NCBI GenBank assembly: GCA_001915545.1
Contig: MNQS01000015.1
Span: forward strand, 1-44,175
Length of the DNA: 44,175 nt
Reading direction: 5' to 3'
Source of the DNA: Bacteroides sp. 43_108
GTDB taxonomy: Bacteria; Bacteroidota; Bacteroidia; Bacteroidales; Bacteroidaceae
Shown here in pieces: positions 19,791-38,851 of this stretch (its first letter is position 1; every line of letters begins with the position of its first letter). The notes under the pieces are model-generated. The model was not told the DNA's origin, did no database searches, and worked only from the letters and a program-made list of their open reading frames with translations. The position numbers were made by a program, and so were the translations under genes.

Positions 19791-20759
19791 TTACAAGATA
19801 ATGTTGAACAAATATCCTGACAGGACAATAAAGACTGTTACTGTACCGAAAAATATTCCTATCAGCCTCCATGTCATAACTTTCTTCAGCAACGTAGCTT
19901 CAGGAAGAGAAAGTCCTACGACAGCCATCATGAAAGATATGGCCGTTCCCAACGGAATGCCTTTGGCCACAAACACCTCGATGACAGGAACGATGCCGGC
20001 TGCATTGGCATACATAGGTACTGCCAGAACAACAGACAAAGGTACGGCAAACCAATTGTCTTTCGACATGTATTGCTCGAAAAATCCTTCAGGAACAAAA
20101 CCGTGCATGAAAGCACCGATTCCTATACCTATCAATATGTATACAAGCACACCACGGACAATCTTCCATGCACCGCGTACAATGTCGGGAAGCCTGTCAA
20201 AGAATCCTGTACGGTCTCTCTCCCATGCATCCGACTGAACCGACGAATCAGCCTGAATCTGCTTGACCCAATCGCTCAGATATCCGTCGAGACGCATCTT
20301 GCCAAGAACAAAACCGCCTATAATACCAAGCAATATACCGCTGATCACATATATAAGCGTAACCTTCAGTCCGAAGGTTCCGAGGAACATGGCAACAGCA
20401 ACTTCATTGACAAGCGGAGAAGTAATGAGAAAAGCAAATGTGACACCCAAAGGTATGCCTCCTTTCACAAAACCTATGAACAGAGGAATGGATGAACACG
20501 AACAGAACGGTGTGATAGCACCGAACATAGATGCCAGCAAATATTGCAATCCGTACATCTTATGTGTCATAAGATAGTTGCGCAAACGTTCTATTGGGAA
20601 ATAGGCATTCACAATACCCATAAGCACACTTATGAAAAACAGCAGAAGAAGTATCTTTATAGAATCATAAAAGAAAAAATTAACTGCCGAACCAAGCTGC
20701 GTATCAGCACTAAGACCGAAAATACCGTACACAAGCCAATCTGCAAAATCCTGTATCAT
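19791..20759 (-). CDS. Permease of the ArsP / DUF318 type
   Basis: A 322-residue inner-membrane permease with about eight helices. The motif ITPFCSCSSIPLFIGF, with its CxC group, and ITSPLVNEVAV are hallmarks of this family; the repeat half has MYANAAGIVPV. Members export arsenicals, including methylated or aromatic forms (ArsP), though some are uncharacterised. Its place with arsC, arsF and arsG favours an arsenical substrate. It is preceded by a hairpin (20812-20846) that may lower its expression relative to the upstream genes. Confidence 0.85.
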   Translation of the reverse strand: MIQDFADWLVYGIFGLSADTQLGSAVNFFFYDSIKILLLLFFISVLMGIVNAYFPIERLRNYLMTHKMYGLQYLLASMFGAITPFCSCSSIPLFIGFVKGGIPLGVTFAFLITSPLVNEVAVAMFLGTFGLKVTLIYVISGILLGIIGGFVLGKMRLDGYLSDWVKQIQADSSVQSDAWERDRTGFFDRLPDIVRGAWKIVRGVLVYILIGIGIGAFMHGFVPEGFFEQYMSKDNWFAVPLSVVLAVPMYANAAGIVPVIEVFVAKGIPLGTAISFMMAVVGLSLPEATLLKKVMTWRLIGIFFGTVTVFIVLSGYLFNIIL

Positions 20760-20811
20760 AACAATGAAGAAAATAAAATTCGTAATAAGACGAACATTAA
20801 AAACATAAATA

Positions 20812-20846
20812 ACGGCGGAAAAGTATCCAGTGCTTATTTCCGCCGT
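20812..20846 (-). terminator. Internal hairpin of the ars operon
   Basis: Perfect 10-bp arms (20812-20821 and 20837-20846). On the minus strand TATTTATGTTTTTAAT follows. It sits in the 109-nt gap between the thioredoxin gene and the permease gene, so it may be a partial terminator or an mRNA-stability element. Confidence 0.55.
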
Positions 20847-20868
20847 ATATCAGTAGAAGAAAACAGCA

Positions 20869-21102
20869 TCAGATGCCAAGAAGTTTCTTTACTTCACTCT
20901 CTGTAGGCACCTGTCCTTTCATCTTGACAACGCCGTCTATGACAATTGCCGGAGTAGACATGATGTTGTACTTCATAATCTCCATTATGTCATCCACCTT
21001 CTCAACAACAGCATCAACATTGTTTTCCTTAACCACTTTTTCGATTACCTGATAAACAGACTTGCATCTGGCACAGCCAGAACCTAAAACCTTTATTTCC
21101 AT
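20869..21102 (-). CDS. Small thioredoxin family protein
   Basis: A 77-residue glutaredoxin-like/thioredoxin-like protein of the type often seen beside metal and arsenic permeases. The redox site is GCARCK (CxxC at Cys10 and Cys13), and the cis-Pro loop is STPAIVID. The predicted order is beta-alpha-beta-alpha-beta-beta-alpha, with no signal peptide. It may reduce ArsC or shuttle electrons to the ArsG-like membrane protein 32 nt upstream. Confidence 0.9.
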   Translation of the reverse strand: MEIKVLGSGCARCKSVYQVIEKVVKENNVDAVVEKVDDIMEIMKYNIMSTPAIVIDGVVKMKGQVPTESEVKKLLGI

Positions 21103-21134
21103 AATTACTTATAATTTGATTACGTATTATATTT

Positions 21135-21842
21135 TCAAAAAAACATTATACAACAATAGTATATACCTATGCCGACAAACAATATTCCGACAATAACCTT
21201 GAGCCATGCCTGAAACGTTTGTATCTTGCCGTATACACTTCCAATCTTGTTTACACTGAAAGCAAGCAGCCATGCAAACAGCAGGACCGGAAGAGCTGTA
21301 GCAACTGCAAACGCCACCGGAAGAAAATATCCGGCAGAAACAGTTGCAGACATCGGTATGAGCATACCGAAATAGAAAACTCCACTGGCCGGACAAAAGG
21401 CCAAAGCAAACAGAATGCCTATAAGCAAAGCTCCCCATCCACCTTTCTCAGCCAGCTTCTCTGCATTTCCGCTGAATCCGAATCGTTGCAGATTAAGCCT
21501 ATCGCCAACAAGCATGAACAATCCGATGAGTATGAGCAAAGGCCCTACAAATATTTCTCCAAGTGAAGCTATTGCCTTCTGTATATCGAACATGCTCGAT
21601 CCTTCACGTATGACAGCTATCAGCACAATGCCCAAGACAGTATAAGACAATATCCTGCCCAATGTATAAAGCAGTCCGTTGGCAAATATTCTCCTTCTGT
21701 CCGTTACATCCTTGCTCAGATAACCTATTGCAGCTATATTTGTAGCAAGCGGACATGGAGAAACAGCAGTCAGCAGTCCCAATATGAAAGCAGTCAGCAC
21801 AGGCATACTGCTGCTGTCAAGCAATGTCTGCAGATATTCCAT
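21135..21842 (-). CDS. arsG: ArsG-like membrane transporter (CcdA/DsbD-type fold)
   Basis: A 235-residue protein with about six helices. Each half carries a Pro/Cys motif at a helix start, AVSPCPLATN and FCPASGVFYFG, as in the CcdA/DsbD transmembrane domain. In arsenic clusters of Bacteroides this family is named ArsG, a putative aromatic aminobenzylarsenical efflux permease. A role as an electron conduit for the thioredoxins on either side is an equally plausible reading of the two Cys motifs. It begins 10 nt after arsF. Confidence 0.8.
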   Translation of the reverse strand: MEYLQTLLDSSSMPVLTAFILGLLTAVSPCPLATNIAAIGYLSKDVTDRRRIFANGLLYTLGRILSYTVLGIVLIAVIREGSSMFDIQKAIASLGEIFVGPLLILIGLFMLVGDRLNLQRFGFSGNAEKLAEKGGWGALLIGILFALAFCPASGVFYFGMLIPMSATVSAGYFLPVAFAVATALPVLLFAWLLAFSVNKIGSVYGKIQTFQAWLKVIVGILFVGIGIYYCCIMFF

Positions 21843-21852
21843 AACAAACTAT

Positions 21853-22296
21853 TCACTTCAACAACTGATCAATCTTCTTAATCAATCCTGACTTGAACAC
21901 ATCAGGTTTCTTTCTCGCATTGGAAAAGGCAAAATTCGTCATGTTCTCCTTTATTTCGCTTTTCTTTCCATGTTTTACAACAAACAATGAAGACCATGTC
22001 ACTTCGTACTTGTCTGCCAGTGCCTCATTTTCCTTTTTGCTTATGTCCACAGCTCTGAACTTCACCTTTCCCTTTTTCAACTCATCCGCATATTCTTTCT
22101 GCAAGACCTCTTTCGTATGCTTCTCAATCGCAATGCAGGTTGCACAACGCTGTTTGCCGTGAAAATAAAGAATCTCCACATAATCGTTCTGCTGTACACT
22201 AACGGCATCAGCAACAGTTGACCTTGCCACAGTCGATGCTGATGTAGCTGTAGTAAGAGTCATAAACGAAAACAATACTGCTAATAACTTTTTCAT
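21853..22296 (-). CDS. arsF: ArsF-like exported thioredoxin-fold protein
   Basis: A 147-residue protein. A signal peptide (about 1-20, ending ATSAS) is followed by a thioredoxin-like domain: EILYFHGKQRCATCIAIEK contains the CxxC, and EVTWSSLFVVKHGKK corresponds to the later strand pair. It belongs to the ArsF family that accompanies arsG in Bacteroidetes arsenic clusters; the ArsE partner is absent here. The start is the ATG at 22296; the TTG at 22308 would add four residues. It is the first gene of the operon, with operator-like palindromes upstream. Confidence 0.8.
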   Translation of the reverse strand: MKKLLAVLFSFMTLTTATSASTVARSTVADAVSVQQNDYVEILYFHGKQRCATCIAIEKHTKEVLQKEYADELKKGKVKFRAVDISKKENEALADKYEVTWSSLFVVKHGKKSEIKENMTNFAFSNARKKPDVFKSGLIKKIDQLLK

Positions 22297-22332
22297 ACGT
22301 TCAACCAACTAGGATATTTTACATAATAGTAA

Positions 22333-22937: not shown

Positions 22938-23378
22938 TCAAATTGTCAAGTCCTGCTCTTCTTTCAGCTTTACACCGATAGCAAATACTTCAGAAAATAT
23001 GTTTATGAAAACTCCTATCAAAAGATAAAACATATAAGTCTGACTGTCAGAATCTGACAGAGAATGCAATATTACCAAAATAATTCCTGTAAGCATAACC
23101 GTATATCCGAAGAACCGCAAAGGAAATATATTCTTCTTATCAAATATGTATCCTCGGTCCACATTTTTCAGAAAACGTACAATGGCAACGGCAGATATGG
23201 TGATGCATACGTACATAACAAGTAGAGTTATTATGCTTAAATCAACTTCGGCACCAGTAAATACAACTTTACCTATTTCGAGGCAGAATCGCAATATTCC
23301 GACAAACATACTTACGTATGCAACAGTAAGACTGCAAAACATAACCAGCTGTCTTTTCTGCTTTATCTTATTTTCCAT
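22938..23378 (-). CDS. DUF2975 family membrane protein (short paralogue)
   Basis: 146 residues with about four helices (roughly residues 12-34, 44-68, 85-105, 113-135). The C-terminal GVKLKEEQDLTI is the hallmark of DUF2975 and is shared almost exactly with the neighbour at 23425. The family has no known biochemical activity; because it so regularly accompanies a small HTH protein, a membrane-sensor or regulator-modulating role has some appeal, but it is a guess. Spacing to the neighbours is 46 and 20 nt. Confidence 0.85.
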   Translation of the reverse strand: MENKIKQKRQLVMFCSLTVAYVSMFVGILRFCLEIGKVVFTGAEVDLSIITLLVMYVCITISAVAIVRFLKNVDRGYIFDKKNIFPLRFFGYTVMLTGIILVILHSLSDSDSQTYMFYLLIGVFINIFSEVFAIGVKLKEEQDLTI

Positions 23379-23424
23379 AATCCATGGTGTTTTAAATTTA
23401 ATATCGTCTATTTACCGAACTGAA

Positions 23425-24066
23425 TCAAATAGTCAAATCCTGCTCTTCCTTCAGCTTTACTGCAAGAACAAAGATTTCTGTAAGGAATATCATGATAAAC
23501 ATATCTGTCCAATCAAACATTGTCAGGTCTTCAGCCAATTTCATGCCTTTAAACTCAAGCTGATTTTCGATACTCGTCAAGAATACATAACGATGAATCT
23601 CTTTAAAGAGTTTGAAGGTCATAAAGAAATATATAAATTTTCTGAGACGTGATGCATTTTTAGATGTAAGAACATTACCCTTGCAGATTGATATGTACAT
23701 CTTGATAAGACAGATAATTCCGTAAAGTCCCAATAAAGCAACTATTATTTCTACAATCCAGCAGATGTAATATGTAAAGTTGTCTACGTATATCTGCGTT
23801 GTCAGCTCGTTTATACGTGCAGGAACCTTATTGCCAAGATAGCTGTTGTATATACTGTCGCATATAGTATTATTGTTGTCTAATTCGACAACGTCTATGC
23901 CGTTCACGTAGCTTATCTTTCCACCGTCGAATTCCACATCAGTTACATCTCTCCAACCTGCGGAAGAACCGTGATAGCCATCAGAAAAACCTTTGTAGAA
24001 ATCCATGAATGTTAATATCAAGAACAGTGAAAAAAGAACTATTCCTAAAATCTTTATGTGTTTCAT
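23425..24066 (-). CDS. DUF2975 family membrane protein (long paralogue)
   Basis: 213 residues. A helix at about 7-25 is followed by an extracytoplasmic stretch of about 70 residues (SDGYHGSSAGWRDVTDVEFD and on), then helices near 95-122, 145-160 and 185-205, and the tail AVKLKEEQDLTI. The extra outer domain, absent from the neighbour at 22938, could sense something outside the membrane. It lies 80 nt downstream of the DUF3836 gene. Confidence 0.82.
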   Translation of the reverse strand: MKHIKILGIVLFSLFLILTFMDFYKGFSDGYHGSSAGWRDVTDVEFDGGKISYVNGIDVVELDNNNTICDSIYNSYLGNKVPARINELTTQIYVDNFTYYICWIVEIIVALLGLYGIICLIKMYISICKGNVLTSKNASRLRKFIYFFMTFKLFKEIHRYVFLTSIENQLEFKGMKLAEDLTMFDWTDMFIMIFLTEIFVLAVKLKEEQDLTI

Positions 24067-24146: not shown

Positions 24147-24545
24147 TTATTTGTTGGCCGGCGTTGAAATAAGGAATGGGAATTTATCGGCATCATAGCT
24201 CTGCGACTTGCAGTTTGCAGAGAAAGTGCATTTTTTTTCGTCCCATGCAGCATAAGAGAGAATATTTGAAGTTTCACCATACTTTACAGTATATACGAAC
24301 GAAGGTTTCCAAGCCTTTGAACTGTTGTCCCACTTGTATGCTGTCTTTGCAAGAACTCTGCCTGCATTGTCGCTCACATATTCATACTTGTAATCCCCAT
24401 TAACCTGAGTTACGCAGTTGTATACCTTGTTCTGATGTGCTTCTATTTCAGATATGTTGTCTACTCCATTTGCATAAGATGATGCACAAGATGCTGCAAA
24501 CAATACTGCTGTTGAAAGAACTGATTTGAAGAATGCTGTTTTCAT
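24147..24545 (-). CDS. DUF3836 family secreted protein
   Basis: 132 residues with a signal peptide (about 1-25; LFAASCASSYA, where Cys20 could be a lipidation site but no good lipobox follows). The mature part has a two-strand repeat character (GDYKYEYVSDNAGRVLAKTA, YKWDNSSKAWKPSFVYTVKY) and two late Cys (KKCTFSANCKS) that may form a disulfide. DUF3836 is restricted to Bacteroidetes; function unknown. It has the clearest promoter in the window and is flanked by twin palindromes, so its expression is probably tightly controlled. Confidence 0.8.
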   Translation of the reverse strand: MKTAFFKSVLSTAVLFAASCASSYANGVDNISEIEAHQNKVYNCVTQVNGDYKYEYVSDNAGRVLAKTAYKWDNSSKAWKPSFVYTVKYGETSNILSYAAWDEKKCTFSANCKSQSYDADKFPFLISTPANK

Positions 24546-24596
24546 AAGTCTTTTATTTTTTAATGTTAGTACTTTTTTTGTTATTCATTATTTGTT

Positions 24597-24611
24597 TATC
24601 GTTTTTCGATA
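24597..24611. promoter_or_regulatory. Operator-like palindrome 1 (TATCG-TTTTT-CGATA)
   Basis: Perfect 5-bp arms around TTTTT. It begins 3 bp downstream of the -7 box of the DUF3836 promoter and covers the expected transcription start near 24608, as expected for a repressor site. Confidence 0.65.
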
Positions 24612-24613
24612 TG

Positions 24614-24644
24614 CAAATGTATATTGTTTTCTGACAATAACAAA
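24614..24644 (-). promoter_or_regulatory. Promoter of the DUF3836 gene
   Basis: Minus strand: -33 TTTG (24644-24641), 19-nt spacer, -7 TACATTTG (24621-24614). This matches the Bacteroidetes primary-sigma consensus fully. The start codon is about 70 nt downstream. Confidence 0.8.
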
Positions 24645-24662
24645 ATATTTTCAATAAAAATT

Positions 24663-24677
24663 TATCGTTTTTCGATA
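24663..24677. promoter_or_regulatory. Operator-like palindrome 2 (TATCG-TTTTT-CGATA)
   Basis: Identical 15-mer to 24597-24611, centred 66 bp away (about six helical turns) and upstream of the -33 element. Here the symmetry extends to 12-bp arms (24656-24667 and 24673-24684). Confidence 0.65.
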
Positions 24678-24754
24678 AATTTTTATTCTTAAATATAAAA
24701 TAGGCCTATACGAAGGCAGTACACATTATTATAAAAGACCTATGACAGCTTTTT

Positions 24755-25291
24755 TTACTTTGAAATCTCAAGCATTTTGGCAAATTCCCATATCACGATT
24801 CCTGCTGTAGTGGAAACATTGAGCGAATGTTTTGTACCGAACTGAGGAATTTCTATACATCCATCGCTCATGTCGACAACTTCCTGTTTGACTCCCTTAA
24901 CTTCGTTGCCCATTACGATGGCATACTTCTTTCCTTCTTCCAGCTGAAGATCCTGGAGCATGGTGCTGTGTTCAACCTGCTCGACGGAATAGACAGTATA
25001 ACCCATTTCGTGGAGTTCAGAAACGGCATCGCGCGTATCTTTGAAATATTTCCAGTCGACCGTATCCTCTGCTCCAAGAGCAGTCTTGTGGATTTCCGGA
25101 TGAGGAGGAACAGCAGATATACCGCACAGATATATTGATTCTACCCTGAAAGCGTCGGAAGTGCGGAAAACAGAACCTACATTATACATGCTGCGGATAT
25201 CATCCATCACTACTACAAGAGGAAGCTTATCGCTTTTCTTGAACTCTTCAACGGTAATTCTGTTGAGTTCAGTTATCTTAAGTTTTCTCAT
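24755..25291 (-). CDS. TrmH/SpoU family RNA 2'-O-methyltransferase
   Basis: A 178-residue SPOUT-fold enzyme that uses S-adenosylmethionine to methylate a ribose in tRNA or rRNA. SPOUT motif 1 is LDDIRSMYNVGSVFRTSDAF-like (VVMDDIRSMYNVGSVFRTSD), motif 2 is YAIVMGNEVKGV and motif 3 is IPQFGTKHSLNVSTTAGI, which form the knotted cofactor site. The frame extends 19 codons upstream to 25348, but those residues are Gln/Asn/Lys-rich and unlike the family, so the ATG at 25291 is preferred. The RNA target is not predictable. It is the first gene of the left arm beside the origin region. Confidence 0.9.
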   Translation of the reverse strand: MRKLKITELNRITVEEFKKSDKLPLVVVMDDIRSMYNVGSVFRTSDAFRVESIYLCGISAVPPHPEIHKTALGAEDTVDWKYFKDTRDAVSELHEMGYTVYSVEQVEHSTMLQDLQLEEGKKYAIVMGNEVKGVKQEVVDMSDGCIEIPQFGTKHSLNVSTTAGIVIWEFAKMLEISK

Positions 25292-25316
25292 TTTACGGCT
25301 ATTTTGTTTATAACAT

Positions 25317-25325
25317 TGTTGATAA
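25317..25325 (-). promoter_or_regulatory. DnaA-box-like 9-mer
   Basis: TGTTGATAA, the complement of TTATCAACA, one base from the TTATCCACA consensus. It lies 26 bp upstream of the TrmH-family start codon, outside the duplicated segments. Confidence 0.55.
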
Positions 25326-25390
25326 GTATGTTTAAAACCGCTTTTCACACAAAAAAATGATGAAAAGCATATCAGTAATGCAAAATTACA

Positions 25391-25830
25391 GAGTTATAAA
25401 CAAATTGCTGATAAAATCTGTTGAAAACTTGTTGATAGCCCGTTAAGAGCCTGTAGAAAGAAAATGAAAAATAAATGTTGTCTGTTAACTTCAAAAATCA
25501 TATATACCACATATTCCGAACGAGCAAAGAAAAGTTGTTTTTTAGTATCAATAAATTTTCTACACCTTAAAAACCGGTTTTAAACATGTCAACAGGAAGA
25601 AAAATATAAACATAATGAATTATCAACACAATGTTAAGAACTTTAACTTGGCATTGTGTCTCAATAATTTACGAAGAAAACGGCTGTTGATAACGCTGTG
25701 AAAGCGAAATACCTAATGTTCAAAAACTAATATGCAAATATGACACGGATTTTTTATCTACACTTTCAACAGCCTATTATTATTAACATAGAATTTAAAA
25801 ACTGAAAATAGGATATATTAATTATTATAG
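25391..25830. repeat. Origin-region direct repeat, copy 1
   Basis: About 440 bp, repeated at 26248-26687 (offset 856-857). I count 16 mismatches over the last ~340 bp (about 95% identity); the first ~100 bp are more divergent. DnaA-box-like sites: TTATCAACA 25620-25628, TGTTGATAA 25685-25693, TTATCTACA 25754-25762. A palindrome AAAACCGGTTTT lies near 25571. Confidence 0.92.
25620..25762. promoter_or_regulatory. DnaA-box cluster 1
   Basis: Three 9-mers, each one base from TTATCCACA on one strand or the other, at 25620, 25685 and 25754 (spacings 65 and 69). Looser matches are TGTTGATAG at 25430 and TGTTGATGG near 25833. Confidence 0.7.
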
Positions 25831-25925
25831 TTCTGTTGATGGTGGTGGTGAATAGCCAACATTTATGTTGATATAGGATTTTCAGCTTTAATATGGCATA
25901 GAACTTACTATAAGCCTTCAGGTAT

Positions 25926-25953
25926 GCAAATATACATCTTAGCGTATATTTGC
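25926..25953. repeat. Inverted repeat between the two origin repeats
   Basis: Perfect 9-bp arms GCAAATATA (25926-25934) and TATATTTGC (25945-25953) with a 10-nt loop, in the unique spacer between the two direct repeats. Role unknown; it may be an unwinding-prone or protein-binding site. Confidence 0.55.
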
Positions 25954-26247
25954 CCGTATAGCTCAAAATAATGGCCTCTAGCGTGATGAAAACATTATAA
26001 TGCTGTCCATATAAGCTCTTGAAACCAATTTCAGCTATATGTAAGACTCTTGATAAGCTTTCATAGAATGTATTTTCAGCATTCTGACCGGCAATAGCAT
26101 TATAATGGCATATACATACGAACAGAATTCACAGCATTTTTTGTCAACAACATTCATTACTGTGTTGAATACTGGGATTATTGACAGAGGAAATATGCGA
26201 ATATATAAGATGACTGATGAAAACTATAACCATGGTACAGAACATGC

Positions 26248-26687
26248 AGTTATAAACAGTTTTATAATAAAATCTGTTGAAAAGCCTGTTGATTACCTGT
26301 GGAAAGTGCGTAGAAAGAAAATAAAAAGTAAATATTGACTGTTAACTCCAAAAATCATATATACCACATATTCCGAATGGACAAAGAAAAGTTGTTTTTT
26401 AGTATCAATAATTTTTCTACACCTTAAAAACCGGTTTTAAACATGTCAACAAGAAGAAAAATGTAAACATAATGAATTATCAACATAATGTTAAGAACTT
26501 TAACTTGGCATTGTATATCAATAATTTATGAAGAAAACGGCTGTTGATAACACTGTGAAAGCGAAATATCTAATGTTCAAAAACTAATATGCAAATATGG
26601 CACGGATTTTTTATCTACACTTTCAACAGCCTATTATTATTAACATAGAATTTAAAAACTAAAAATAGGATATAATAATTATTATAG
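26248..26687. repeat. Origin-region direct repeat, copy 2
   Basis: Partner of 25391-25830. The DnaA-box-like sites are kept without change and with identical spacing: TTATCAACA 26477-26485, TGTTGATAA 26542-26550, TTATCTACA 26611-26619. A near-box TGTTGATTA occurs at 26287. Confidence 0.92.
26477..26619. promoter_or_regulatory. DnaA-box cluster 2
   Basis: Same three boxes as in cluster 1, 857 bp further on, with the same 65- and 69-bp spacings, although the DNA between them carries substitutions. Confidence 0.7.
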
Positions 26688-26892
26688 GTTTGAGGTTGTG
26701 CAGAATGGTTGATGATATCAATATAGTGCTTGGATATATGAGCATGTTTGATTCTATTCCTATATATATAATGTGAAGATAACTCAAAAGTGATTGATCA
26801 AACGGTTTTTTAGGGAAAAAAGAGTTATTTTCGCAAAGCATATTGAGGTCTGCCTTCATGGCAGATCAAACAAACTAAATAGAAAGCATATA

Positions 26893-27927
26893 ATGACAGA
26901 CGACTTTGATATACGTGAAGAGCAGAATTTGTCTCCTAAGGAAAAGGAGTTTGAAAATGCTCTGCGCCCTCTTCGATTTGAAGATTTCAACGGACAGAAT
27001 AAGGTGGTTGAAAATCTTCGGATATTTGTAGAAGCCGCTAAATACCGCGGTGAACCGCTCGACCATACTCTTCTGCACGGTCCTCCAGGACTTGGAAAAA
27101 CAACTCTTTCTAACATTATAGCCAATGAACTTGGTGTAGGTTTTAAGGTTACTTCTGGACCTGTTCTCGACAAACCTGGCGACCTTGCCGGAATACTTAC
27201 TTCGCTTCAGGAAAACGATGTGTTGTTCATAGATGAGATACATCGTCTGTCGCCTGTTGTGGAAGAATATCTTTATTCGGCAATGGAGGATTACCGTATA
27301 GACATCATGATAGACAAGGGGCCGTCTGCACGAAGCATACAGATAGATTTGAATCCTTTCACACTGGTCGGCGCCACAACCCGAAGCGGTCTTCTCACAG
27401 CTCCTTTGAGAGCCAGATTCGGTATAAATCTTCATTTGGAATACTACGATGCAGAGATTCTGACGAAAATCATAATGCGCTCGGCAAAACTTCTGAACGT
27501 GCCATGCGACTTCGATGCTGCAGGCGAGATTGCCGGCAGAAGCCGAGGCACGCCACGTATTGCCAATGCTCTCCTGCGCCGTGTGAGAGATTTTGCTCAG
27601 GTCAAGGGCAACGGCAGAATAAATATGGAGATTGCTCATATTGCTCTTGAGGCACTGAACATCGACAAGTTCGGACTCGACGAGATAGACAATAAGATAC
27701 TCACAACAATCATCGATAAATTCAAAGGCGGTCCTGTAGGTATAAACACGATTGCAACTGCCATCGGTGAAGACGGAGGTACAGTAGAAGAAGTTTACGA
27801 ACCTTTCCTCATAAAGGAAGGTTTCATCAAACGTACACCAAGAGGACGTGAGGTGACAGAATTGGCCTATAAGCATCTGGGACGCCTGCGTACGCCTGAC
27901 GGAATGCAGAGGAGTCTGTTCGACTGA
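26893..27927 (+). CDS. ruvB: Holliday junction branch migration DNA helicase
   Basis: AAA+ ATPase motor of the RuvABC complex, 344 residues. Walker [11 protein letters not shown] at about 63-72, Walker B DEIHRL at 114-119, sensor 1 GATTRSG, the arginine-finger region TAPLRARFG, and the C-terminal winged helix with [16 protein letters not shown]. The start is MTDDFDIRE; the frame is open 33 codons upstream, but that part is unlike RuvB and begins in the origin-side gap. It is the first gene of the right arm, followed at 40 nt by rdgB. Confidence 0.98.
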
Positions 27928-27967: not shown

Positions 27968-28555
27968 ATGGTTCAACTGGTTTTTGCTACAAACAACAAG
28001 CATAAGCTTGAAGAGGTAAGAGAGATTCTTAAAGACAAATTCGAGATATTGAGTCTGGCAGATATTGGATGCGATGCAGATATTCCAGAAACGGCAGACA
28101 CTTTCAAGGGCAATGCTCTGCAGAAAGCTCAGTATATAAAGGAACACTACAATATGGATTGTTTTGCCGACGATTCCGGACTGGAATGCGATGCTCTTAA
28201 CGGCGAGCCAGGTGTGTTTTCTGCAAGATATGCCGGTGGTCAAGGACACGACTCTGAGGCCAACATGGACAAGCTTCTGAAAAATCTTGAAGAAAAATCT
28301 GATAGGAATGCACAATTTCACACTGTTGTTGCGTTGATATATAATGGTGAGACACATTTCTTTGAAGGCATAGTAAGAGGACACATCACGAAGGAGCGTC
28401 GCGGAGAAGGCGGTTTCGGCTATGACCCAATATTTGTGCCTGAGGGATATGACATGACATATTCCGAGATGGGAAGTGAGGCCAAGAATGCCATGAGCCA
28501 CAGAGCACTGGCTGTAAAGAAGCTGGCCGAGTTTCTTACCGGAAATCAGCAGTAA
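27968..28555 (+). CDS. rdgB: Non-canonical purine NTP pyrophosphatase (XTP/dITP)
   Basis: House-cleaning enzyme of the HAM1/RdgB family that hydrolyses dITP and XTP to monophosphates, 195 residues. Motifs: [16 protein letters not shown] at the N-terminus, [14 protein letters not shown] with the catalytic and metal-binding Asp68/Asp69, [20 protein letters not shown], and SHRALA near the end. It probably shares a transcript with ruvB upstream and the PorZ-like gene 29 nt downstream. Confidence 0.97.
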
Positions 28556-28584
28556 CAGTATCAATTCAAATAATTGTCTTTTTT

Positions 28585-30900
28585 ATGGTATATAATGTCA
28601 GACGTCTAATATTGTTTTTCCTGATGTCGTTCGTATTGGTACAGGCGTATCCGCAGAACAACAGATGGACCATTTATGCGGCATATCACGATGCTTCAAA
28701 ATGCGTGTCGGTAGGAAGCAAGATATATGTTTTGAGCGACGGCGGACTGTATTCATACGATTATGAAGATATGGATGTGGTGACGTACGACAAGAGCGGT
28801 GTGCTTAGCGACAACGGCATATTCGACATTTCGTATTGTTCAGAAGAAAAAACTCTTGTCATAGTCTACAACAACGGCAACATTGATCTTCTTTACGATG
28901 ACGGCAGTGTGTACAACATGACCGATTTCAAGAACAAGACGGCTGGCGACAAGACCATAAATGATATCTACGTCAACGGCAAGAATATGTATATGTCGAC
29001 CAACTATGGTCTGCTTATAGTAGATATTGCCGAACGTATTTTTTCTAAGACATATACCCTCGATTACGGAATAAACAGTGTTGCAGTGGATGGCAATTTC
29101 ATCTATGCCGCTACTGACAATGGAGTATATAAGGGAAATACAGCAGACAATCTGCAGGACAAGTCGAAATGGAGCGTCATAACCAAGAATGCCATCGATG
29201 AATTTATTGATTTCAATGGAAAACTGTATAGTCTCACCTCGTCAGGCGTATTCTCTATAGATAAGAGTACGTTTGCCATGACAAATATTTCAAAGTTTTC
29301 TGCAAAGTATTGGAGCATCTGCAACGATATGCTTTTGCTTTCCGATGCCAGCAGCTTGTATTCTGTAGGCACAGACGGTAAGATGACCCTTCTTGACGGT
29401 AAAGGCATCAGAACTGCCGATTATGCAGGAAATACATATTGGTGTGCATGCGGTACAGACGGACTTAAGGGTATGAGTCTGAAGGACGGTAAATTTACGG
29501 AAAACGTTTCTTCTGTTATTCCTGACAGTCCTATGAGAAATTACAGTTATTTCCTCAGAATGACGCCAGAAAACAGATTGCTTGTGGCAGGAGGTTCATT
29601 CAATTACAACGGGCAGTCTTTTCCTGGTACATTGATGAAGTACGAAAACCAGAGCTGGACTTGCTTTGATGAAGAGACACCTATAGCAACTGTTGGAAAA
29701 AGTCTCTATGTAAACGTAACAGATATCGCTCAGGATCCTAACGACAGCGAACATCATTTTGCAGGTTCTGCTTCGGATGGAATATTTGAGTTCAAGGATT
29801 ACAAGATGGTAAATCATTATGATTACCGCAACAGTCCTCTACAATCGATTCTTCCTAGTAGTTCTCGTCCTAATGCTTATGTTTGGATTACTGGTCTGGA
29901 ATACGATAAAGACGGCAATCTTTGGATGCTCAACAATCAGACAGATACAATTGTGCGTATTCTGAAAAACGATGGTAAATGGGCTACACTGTATTATTCT
30001 GAAATAAAGGATATTCCTACGTTGGATCAGGTTTTGTTCGACAACAGAGGTTGGGCATGGATAAATTGCAGGCGAACTACAAATAACCCTGTAAACTATG
30101 CTGGAGTTTTCTGTGTAGACACGAAAGGAACACTGGAAAATACTGCCGACGATTCACGTAAATTCATAACCCGTTTCAGCAATCAGGATGGTGTTGCTTA
30201 CAGTCCGGACCTTTTCAACTGTATAGCTGAAGATCTTGACGGAAATATATGGTTTGGTACTGACAAGGGACCATTCGTCACATACAGTCCTGAAGATGTC
30301 TTCGACAACGGCTTTTATTTTACTCAGGTGAAGATTCCTAGAAACGACGGTACTAACCTTGCCGACTACCTTCTCAGCGATGTAAACATCACTTGCATAA
30401 CTATTGATGGAGGCAACAGAAAATGGATGGGAACGAGTGGCAACGGCGTTTATCTGTTGAGCAGTGACGGTATTGAAATGATAGAACATTTCACAACTGA
30501 AAACAGTCCTCTCATATCCGACAACATAGAATCAATAGCTATTGACGGTTCAACAGGCGAAGTGTTCTTCGGTACGGATGCAGGTTTGGTTTCTTACCTT
30601 GGAACGGCCACAGATCCTGCCGGTTCGCTTTCAGATGACAATATAAAGGTTTACCCTAATCCTGTACGTCCTGAATACACCGGACGCATATATATAACAG
30701 GTCTTATGCGCGATACAGATGTGAAGATTGTGAGTGCTTCCGGATACCTTGTCAACAGTGGTACTTCAGTCGGAGGTGAATACACTTGGGACGGAAAGAA
30801 CAAGGGTGGAAAACGAGTTGCATCGGGCGTTTACTACGTCTTGGCAGCTGATGCTGAAGGAAACAGCGGAACTGTAGCTAAAATATTGGTTATAAGATAA
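28585..30900 (+). CDS. porZ: PorZ-like beta-propeller protein of the type IX secretion system
   Basis: 771 residues. A signal peptide (about 1-23, ending VQAYPQ) is followed by many propeller blades of the two-component-regulator/ligand-binding type (NGIFDISYCSEEKTLVIVY, NSVAVDGNFIYAATDNGVY, NCIAEDLDGNIWFGTDKG, ESIAIDGSTGEVFFGTDAG), enough for two seven-bladed propellers. The last ~85 residues form a sorting-domain-like beta sandwich (VYPNPVRPEYTGRIYITGL through GVYYVLAADAEGN). Size and order match PorZ of Porphyromonas gingivalis, a surface part of the attachment complex that handles anionic LPS for T9SS cargo. A propeller protein of other function is the alternative. It ends at a terminator (30939-30982). 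Confidence 0.72.
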   Translation: MVYNVRRLILFFLMSFVLVQAYPQNNRWTIYAAYHDASKCVSVGSKIYVLSDGGLYSYDYEDMDVVTYDKSGVLSDNGIFDISYCSEEKTLVIVYNNGNIDLLYDDGSVYNMTDFKNKTAGDKTINDIYVNGKNMYMSTNYGLLIVDIAERIFSKTYTLDYGINSVAVDGNFIYAATDNGVYKGNTADNLQDKSKWSVITKNAIDEFIDFNGKLYSLTSSGVFSIDKSTFAMTNISKFSAKYWSICNDMLLLSDASSLYSVGTDGKMTLLDGKGIRTADYAGNTYWCACGTDGLKGMSLKDGKFTENVSSVIPDSPMRNYSYFLRMTPENRLLVAGGSFNYNGQSFPGTLMKYENQSWTCFDEETPIATVGKSLYVNVTDIAQDPNDSEHHFAGSASDGIFEFKDYKMVNHYDYRNSPLQSILPSSSRPNAYVWITGLEYDKDGNLWMLNNQTDTIVRILKNDGKWATLYYSEIKDIPTLDQVLFDNRGWAWINCRRTTNNPVNYAGVFCVDTKGTLENTADDSRKFITRFSNQDGVAYSPDLFNCIAEDLDGNIWFGTDKGPFVTYSPEDVFDNGFYFTQVKIPRNDGTNLADYLLSDVNITCITIDGGNRKWMGTSGNGVYLLSSDGIEMIEHFTTENSPLISDNIESIAIDGSTGEVFFGTDAGLVSYLGTATDPAGSLSDDNIKVYPNPVRPEYTGRIYITGLMRDTDVKIVSASGYLVNSGTSVGGEYTWDGKNKGGKRVASGVYYVLAADAEGNSGTVAKILVIR

Positions 30901-38039: not shown

Positions 38040-38851
38040 TTTTTTTTATGGAATATGCACAAACTTATGTCTTATATTTGCACTTGTAGTGCCATGTTTT
38101 CATGGTCTGGATATATAATATCTGCATAAAAACATGTTGTTTTTCTATTAAAATTCCATTTGAATTCTGCTATATTTAATATTTCAATAACAGATTTTCA
38201 AGCATTTTTCCCTGTTTAAATCATATTATTTCTCATTTCTTTTAGTACTGATAGTAGTTTTCTGGGGGTATTTTTGCGTATTAATCGTCATATACAAGCA
38301 TTATTTATCGTTTTATTTTGAGTTTTTCATGTATGTAATGGCTGTATTTCTCGTCGTTTTTTATGAATAGTATTTCAAGATTTATATTCTTTTATGTGGT
38401 TATTATGCGGTGCAAATAGGGTTTTGAGATACTCAATAGTATAGAAATATCATATATTATATGCGTTGTGTAGGCATATTTTAATGTTGTGTTTCATGTT
38501 TTTCTTGTGTTTTTCAGTGTTATTTTTCAATTATTTATTGCTTATATCCGCTTATTGCGTCTTATTTTTTTGTGGATTTTACCTGATAACTTTGTTTTCT
38601 ACAAGCCTATTTTTACCTTGAAATGGCCTTCTTCGGTGTTTAAAGAAGTAATATTTCTATGCTTATATGCTTCCTTTATGTGGATTTTCATGAATTACAA
38701 CAGCTGTTTTCAGAGGATATTTGCGCTATTTTATCGGCAAAATATTGTATTTATTATCATATTTCCGGCATAGTTTTAGTATTCTATAGCTCTGAAATAT
38801 GTGGCTTGATGCGGTTTTTATACTGATATTTTGAAGTGAAATGAGAATTCC

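Follow-up and report, generated by a model that had tools for sequence, protein, structure and literature searches.

The basal unwinding system (BUS) of replication origins was first described in Bacillus subtilis (PMC8287927, PMC6669920, PMC10721633). In the passages of that work consulted here, it is a DnaA box with at most two mismatches, placed 0-16 bp from at least three DnaA-trios, with an optional weaker second box of at most four mismatches; the spacer length peaks at 10-13 bp, and a GAT trio adjoins the boxes (PMC8287927). The survey in the same paper spans nine phyla, and as its excerpts describe the screen, candidates are ranked to about one per genome, so that a duplicate would go unreported (PMC8287927). 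These BUS passages do not address the number of opening units per origin. Our literature search found no paper with both 'DnaA-trio' and 'Bacteroides' in the text that it covered. Bipartite origins, in the sections seen of PMC4285127, have two box clusters, only one of them with an unwinding element, and the gene in the spacer is usually dnaA. In Bacteroidetes, oriC commonly lies far from dnaA, according to the excerpts of PMC4755523.

Here we analyzed a 44,175-nucleotide stretch of DNA (the window). The original prediction was that the gap between two of its genes is a bipartite oriC made of two equal modules. We found that each module ends in a complete BUS, and that the better description is a tandemly duplicated unwinding module.

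The gap at the strand switch and its repeats

The features of the gap and its borders are as follows.

24755-25291, minus strand: SpoU/TrmH-family RNA methyltransferase gene, left border (Pfam SpoU_methylase, 1.8e-35)
25292-26892, no strand: intergenic region, almost certainly oriC (box cluster, skew minimum at 25787-25803, strand switch)
25317-25325, minus strand: DnaA box TTATCAACA, outside the modules (seventh box)
25392-25830, plus strand: origin module copy 1 (direct self-match and gapped alignment)
25620-25628, plus strand: DnaA box TTATCAACA, copy 1
25685-25693, minus strand: DnaA box TTATCAACA, copy 1
25754-25762, plus strand: DnaA box TTATCTACA, copy 1, part of BUS 1
25754-25785, plus strand: BUS 1, with TTATCTACA at 25754-25762, the abutting, weaker and co-oriented CTTTCAACA at 25763-25771, and minus-strand trios at 25774-25785
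25771-25840, no strand: low-stability DNA at BUS 1 (60-bp windows at 25771 and 25781, eighth and fourteenth least stable of those listed for the 44 kb)
26248-26687, plus strand: origin module copy 2 (direct self-match and gapped alignment)
26477-26485, plus strand: DnaA box TTATCAACA, copy 2
26542-26550, minus strand: DnaA box TTATCAACA, copy 2
From 26611, plus strand: DnaA box TTATCTACA, copy 2, part of BUS 2
26611-26642, plus strand: BUS 2, same layout as BUS 1
26631-26690, no strand: low-stability DNA at BUS 2 (third least stable 60-bp window listed for the 44 kb)
26893-27927, plus strand: ruvB, right border (NCBIfam RuvB, 5.9e-152)

Gene direction changes at the gap. A greedy choice of open reading frames gave 24 of 24 genes on the minus strand to the left and 10 of 13 on the plus strand to the right; the latter tally was corrected to 11 of 13, because the greedy choice had placed a minus-strand frame over rdgB, whose family match is on the plus strand. 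The right-hand tally thus equals the one claimed before, and the left-hand tally differs slightly from the earlier 25 of 26. The cumulative GC-skew minimum of the window was located at 25787-25803, so that the skew minimum and the divergent leading strands expected of an oriC coincide locally, within the 44-kb window. Across the gap the skew is nearly flat (-1322 at 25787, rising to about -1308, and about -1310 at 26631), and these values differ so little that they hardly separate copy 1 from copy 2.

A single direct self-match was found in the gap (25392-25830 with 26248-26687, 91.8% identity), and the two direct repeats of about 440 bp that had been predicted were thereby found again. They start 856-857 bp apart and are separated by a non-repeated spacer of 417 bp. 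The gapped alignment of 25391-25850 with 26247-26706 was 461 columns long, of which 46 were substitutions and 2 were indel columns. Identity was highest in the middle and right of the repeats and dropped at both ends (193 of 201 positions in 25600-25800; left end 71 of 90, right end 37 of 50). No ORF of more than 77 codons and no evident gene was found in the spacer; the longest ORF touching it, of 77 codons (26105-26338), extends into copy 2. A tRNA scan found none, and a viral-contig pattern scan gave zero matches.

Each module carries three DnaA boxes within one mismatch of TTATCCACA, and their spacings of 65 and 69 bp are the same in both copies, which supports the earlier description as two equal modules. 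Outside the gap, the 44-kb window has 11 nine-mers with at most one mismatch from TTATCCACA. In the 1.6-kb gap, TTATCNACA was observed 7 times, whereas 2000 dinucleotide shuffles averaged 0.12 and reached 3 at most, indicating a DnaA-box cluster above chance. In copy 1 alone it occurred 3 times, against 0.03 in shuffles, and none of the 2000 shuffles reached 3. The nine-mers are indeed unchanged between the copies, but this carries little weight: by our own arithmetic, at the core divergence of about 5%, chance alone would leave 27 bases unchanged in about a quarter of cases. The argument that unchanged nine-mers prove selection was dropped, since it is not significant at that divergence.

The unwinding element in the window and in relatives

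Each module ends at the right in a complete BUS, a core that was missed in the original prediction. The order is TTATCTACA, the abutting CTTTCAACA, GC, and then CTATTATTATTA, which on the other strand reads 3'-GAT AAT AAT AAT-5', that is, four DnaA-trios. In both copies 11 bp separate the strong box from the four trios, which is inside the 16-bp limit, and the minimum of three trios is exceeded. The second box is co-oriented and the upstream one is nearer the consensus (one mismatch to TTATCCACA in TTATCTACA, three in CTTTCAACA), which is the commonest arrangement. The A+T-rich unwinding element expected of an oriC is present as well, the 60-bp windows at 26631 and 25771 being the third and eighth least stable of those listed. 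Scanned for BUS, the 44-kb window yielded, besides these two, a single weaker match at 38595 (3-bp spacer, three trios).

Relatives were reached through other loci; among them were Bacteroides finegoldii DSM 17565 (G014) and an uncultured Paraprevotella (G008). A BLAST search with the gap hit 35 of 399 family genomes, often in the BUS part; of 20 BLAST-derived loci, 9 had the methyltransferase gene inside the fetched flanks. An element scan showed the element, with the same spacing, in further relative loci. We then used a profile, R1, of 65 positions built from 23 examples. The window copies, alike at 64 of the 65 positions, score 58.7 and 57.1 bits, values that are circular because both are among the 23 training sequences. 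Of the 399 family genomes, R1 matched 239 (E<=0.01) and gave no match in the other 160; of the 295 order genomes it matched 76 (E<=0.001). The two draws overlap (e.g. G073, G025, G055 and G036), so the counts are not additive, and such large profile searches use stricter filters, which lose weak matches. Among 20 stretches from relatives, a sample that was not blind because L142-L145 had been chosen via an earlier step centred on the methyltransferase gene, 17 contained the element (weakly in L144), and 14 of these also showed the methyltransferase gene. In 12 of these 14 loci the BUS lay 357-448 bp 5' of that gene. The corresponding distances from the 5' end of the gene in the window are 463 bp for copy 1 and 1320 bp for copy 2.

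Comparison of the trmH-ruvB gap among relatives had been proposed as a check, and it came out differently for the two borders. The methyltransferase gene, whose best NCBIfam match is RlmB, below the RlmB cut-off, is conserved beside the origin; ruvB is not. At 80 other ruvB loci we found zero TrmH-family genes beside ruvB and, up to 2.5 kb upstream of it, at most two DnaA boxes per locus. These 80 loci ruled out ruvB as a conserved anchor, and the methyltransferase gene was used instead. Best matches to ruvB were metagenome-assembled genomes and isolates named Bacteroidales, Bacteroidaceae and Prevotellaceae. In the window (27968-30900), as in L131, L132, L134, L137-L139 and L142, the origin has rdgB and porZ (type IX secretion) nearby, and the immediate right-hand neighbour of the origin varies between the window and those relatives. 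Among 637 PorZ relatives found, the 120 listed were 99-100% identical, suggesting that the window comes from an abundant gut bacterium. Elsewhere in the window we observed a run of arsenical-transport-like genes (19791-22308; an ArsP_1 permease, ArsG-type and ArsF-type proteins) and two adjacent genes that both match DUF2975 (22938-24066).

We also examined GC skew in the relatives. In 9 of 17 loci the skew minimum of the fetched stretch lay at most 0.33 kb from the BUS, in 7 of these at most 60 bp, and in the other 8 loci it lay elsewhere; where the two coincide exactly, this is in part an effect of the C run that precedes G within the element. In G315 the local minimum is at 2,667,487 and the matched element at 2,667,490-2,667,553, 3 bp apart. 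Chromosome skew was sampled in 20-kb pieces in three near-complete relative chromosomes (G032, G295 and G315). The sampled minimum was at 432 kb and the BUS at 435 kb in G032; in G295 and G315 the sampled minima were 134 kb and 95 kb from the BUS, with sampling steps of about 100-250 kb.

The gap is flanked by the methyltransferase gene and ruvB, so dnaA is not beside it. This had been stated in the original prediction and is normal for the phylum, as far as PMC4755523 goes in the parts seen. In relatives, dnaA was 0.43 Mb (G032), 0.83 Mb (G154), 0.84 Mb (G295) and 1.6 Mb (G315) away, in agreement with the account of Bacteroidetes in the excerpts of that paper. Besides dnaA, contig C1 of G350 has eight weak DnaA-domain matches of identical score across the chromosome, which are probably the ATPase of a repeated mobile element.

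Taken together, the DnaA boxes, the local skew minimum, the strand switch, the BUS in each module and the BUS beside the same methyltransferase gene in relatives uphold the assignment of the gap as oriC, of which we are nearly certain.

Two modules here and one strong BUS in the relatives sampled

Two strong BUS in one gap were seen in the window only; the family, order and placed-match searches gave none. More than one match occurred in 17 of the 239 matching family genomes; all 17 were placed, together with G052 (18 genomes), and none of the 17 had two strong matches in one gap. Within 2 kb either side of the BUS, 20 relative origins had no direct repeat of at least 60 bp; the same test on the window recovers a 439-bp repeat. 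Several candidates for a second doubled origin were rejected. The two equal matches of G224 are on contigs C29 and C30, which are identical over 8,956 bp, probably an assembly redundancy around the origin. The extra match is weak and no repeat of at least 60 bp accompanies it in G195 (19.2 bits, 687 bp apart) and in G346 (17.6 bits, about 290 bp apart, other strand). G083 has two matches separated by 10.8 kb, both of them weak (27.2 and 25.2 bits), and those of the order-level genomes G450 and G481 are on different contigs.

The closest genus found comprises three genomes (G052, G073 and G090), each with one module homologue and one strong BUS match. G073 is continuous from the module to the methyltransferase gene, with another gene between. 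In G052 and G090 the contig stops on one side, about 1.1 and 0.5 kb from the module respectively, so a second copy could lie past that point. The window copies resemble each other (0.89) more than they do the homologues in these three genomes (0.57-0.60), suggesting that the duplication is younger than the split from that genus, or that the copies were homogenised. Derived changes were polarised to copy 1 in 17 cases and to copy 2 in 15, and 18 were unpolarised. On comparison of the sampled sequences, the duplication very probably is specific to this lineage.

In this closest genus we also observed, at L141:9600-13250, that a further gene and some 2 kb of non-coding DNA lie between the methyltransferase gene and the BUS module; the non-coding stretch carries a short tandem repeat as well as palindromes rich in GCGC. 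Beside the module there is a second conserved non-coding block (L140:527-848 and its counterpart in L141, 69% identity), with TTATAAACA nine-mers in L140, possibly another origin part.

We propose the following mechanism. As established BUS biology would predict, DnaA-ATP binds the tandem boxes, TTATCTACA and then CTTTCAACA, and the DnaA oligomer would run rightward onto the minus-strand trios 3'-GAT AAT AAT AAT-5', opening the A+T-rich DNA to the right of each module for helicase loading. The comparison with relatives suggests that the module was tandemly duplicated after the split from the nearest genus seen. The origin would thus have two potential sites of opening, alternative or cooperating, that share one orientation and lie 857 bp apart. 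Judged from its letters, neither BUS is decayed; that both are intact could stem from recent duplication or gene conversion, and it is not significant against the divergence of about 5% in the module centre.

We next consider whether both units are used. Copy 1 is the likelier ancestral start, because its distance from the methyltransferase gene is the ancestral one and because the skew minimum falls there. These two points, a distance of 463 bp compared with 357-448 bp in relatives and the skew position, also speak for a possible but somewhat doubtful alternative, in which only one BUS works, probably copy 1, and the other module is only a DnaA-binding site for titration or timing that will decay; the examined relatives, too, manage with one strong BUS. 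However, the BUS of copy 2 scores as high as that of copy 1, substitutions are balanced (17 vs. 15), and a pure titration site need not retain trios and spacing. Copy 2 probably works as a second unit, or at the least binds DnaA. Direct repeats tend to recombine away, and the retention of both units despite this hints at the use of both. From sequence, the chances that both copies are able to open in the cell appear evenly balanced, and we put forward only tentatively, as a real possibility short of an even one, that this is a single origin with two complete, selectively maintained tandem opening units, both of which are used.

It is improbable that the doubling is an assembly artefact joining the single modules of two strains in one contig. 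The PorZ search points to a metagenome of many near-identical strains as the source, and the sister-genus contigs break beside the module. But the two copies differ by about 10%, compared with 99-100% identity among the 120 listed PorZ relatives, and the different flanks and the 417-bp non-repeated spacer are not expected from joining alleles of one locus.

That the gap is the origin of a plasmid, phage or second replicon is highly improbable. Direct repeats in an origin recall iteron origins, and Prevotella intermedia has a second chromosome, according to the excerpts of PMC4755523. Against this, a plasmid search of the gap gave no match, and phage matches start at the right border with ruvB and none is in the gap. 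The flanks are chromosomal housekeeping genes (ruvB, rdgB, mnmG and uvrC), no replication-initiator family was found among the 31 distinct window proteins searched, a subset of the ORFs, and the copies in relatives are on chromosome-sized contigs with dnaA. Equally improbable is a regulatory region that merely holds DnaA boxes: the gap does sit between divergent genes, but the BUS geometry, the skew minimum, the conservation beside varying right-hand neighbours and the zero Rfam matches in 24500-27400 argue against it.

We therefore regard it as likely that the gap is the chromosomal oriC of a member of the Bacteroides/Prevotella group of Bacteroidales, in which the module is duplicated, both copies are intact and there are two possible opening sites. 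If both units are used, the effect could be, for example, a higher initiation frequency, or the loading of two helicases from separate openings. A natural two-unit origin with one-unit relatives would allow unit number to be tested against initiation frequency, and would also bear on the loading of two helicases for bidirectional replication. The element fixed beside the methyltransferase gene is a simple landmark of oriC in many gut Bacteroidales, useful for estimating growth rates from metagenome read coverage.

Comparison with known origins

Compared with the B. subtilis BUS, as described in the passages cited above, the window likewise has two boxes in tandem and co-oriented, the upstream one being the stronger, a distance to the trios (11 bp) that falls in the reported peak of 10-13 bp, and a 3'-GAT-5' trio adjoining the boxes, with at least three trios. 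The difference is that the gap in the window holds two complete copies. The predicted oriC of Prevotella intermedia OMA14 likewise has several DnaA boxes, a skew transition and a position far from dnaA; it spans 476 bp, and the sections seen of PMC4755523 mention no duplication.

The word bipartite did not hold. As in the bipartite origins of B. subtilis and Helicobacter pylori, two DnaA-box clusters lie some hundreds of bases apart (PMC4285127, in the parts seen), here with three strong boxes per module. However, the unwinding element is in one part there and in both parts here, and a gene, usually dnaA, separates the parts there (same excerpts), whereas here the spacer has no evident gene, being touched by ORFs of at most 77 codons.

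Mycobacterium bovis BCG Pasteur shares with the window a natural chromosome with two oriC copies; as reported in the passages seen of PMC2448323, the duplication in that vaccine strain spans 29.7 kb, whereas in the window a module of 440 bp is doubled within one gap and has diverged by about 10%. The doubled opening unit is new among the genomes examined, and the kind of system is already known.
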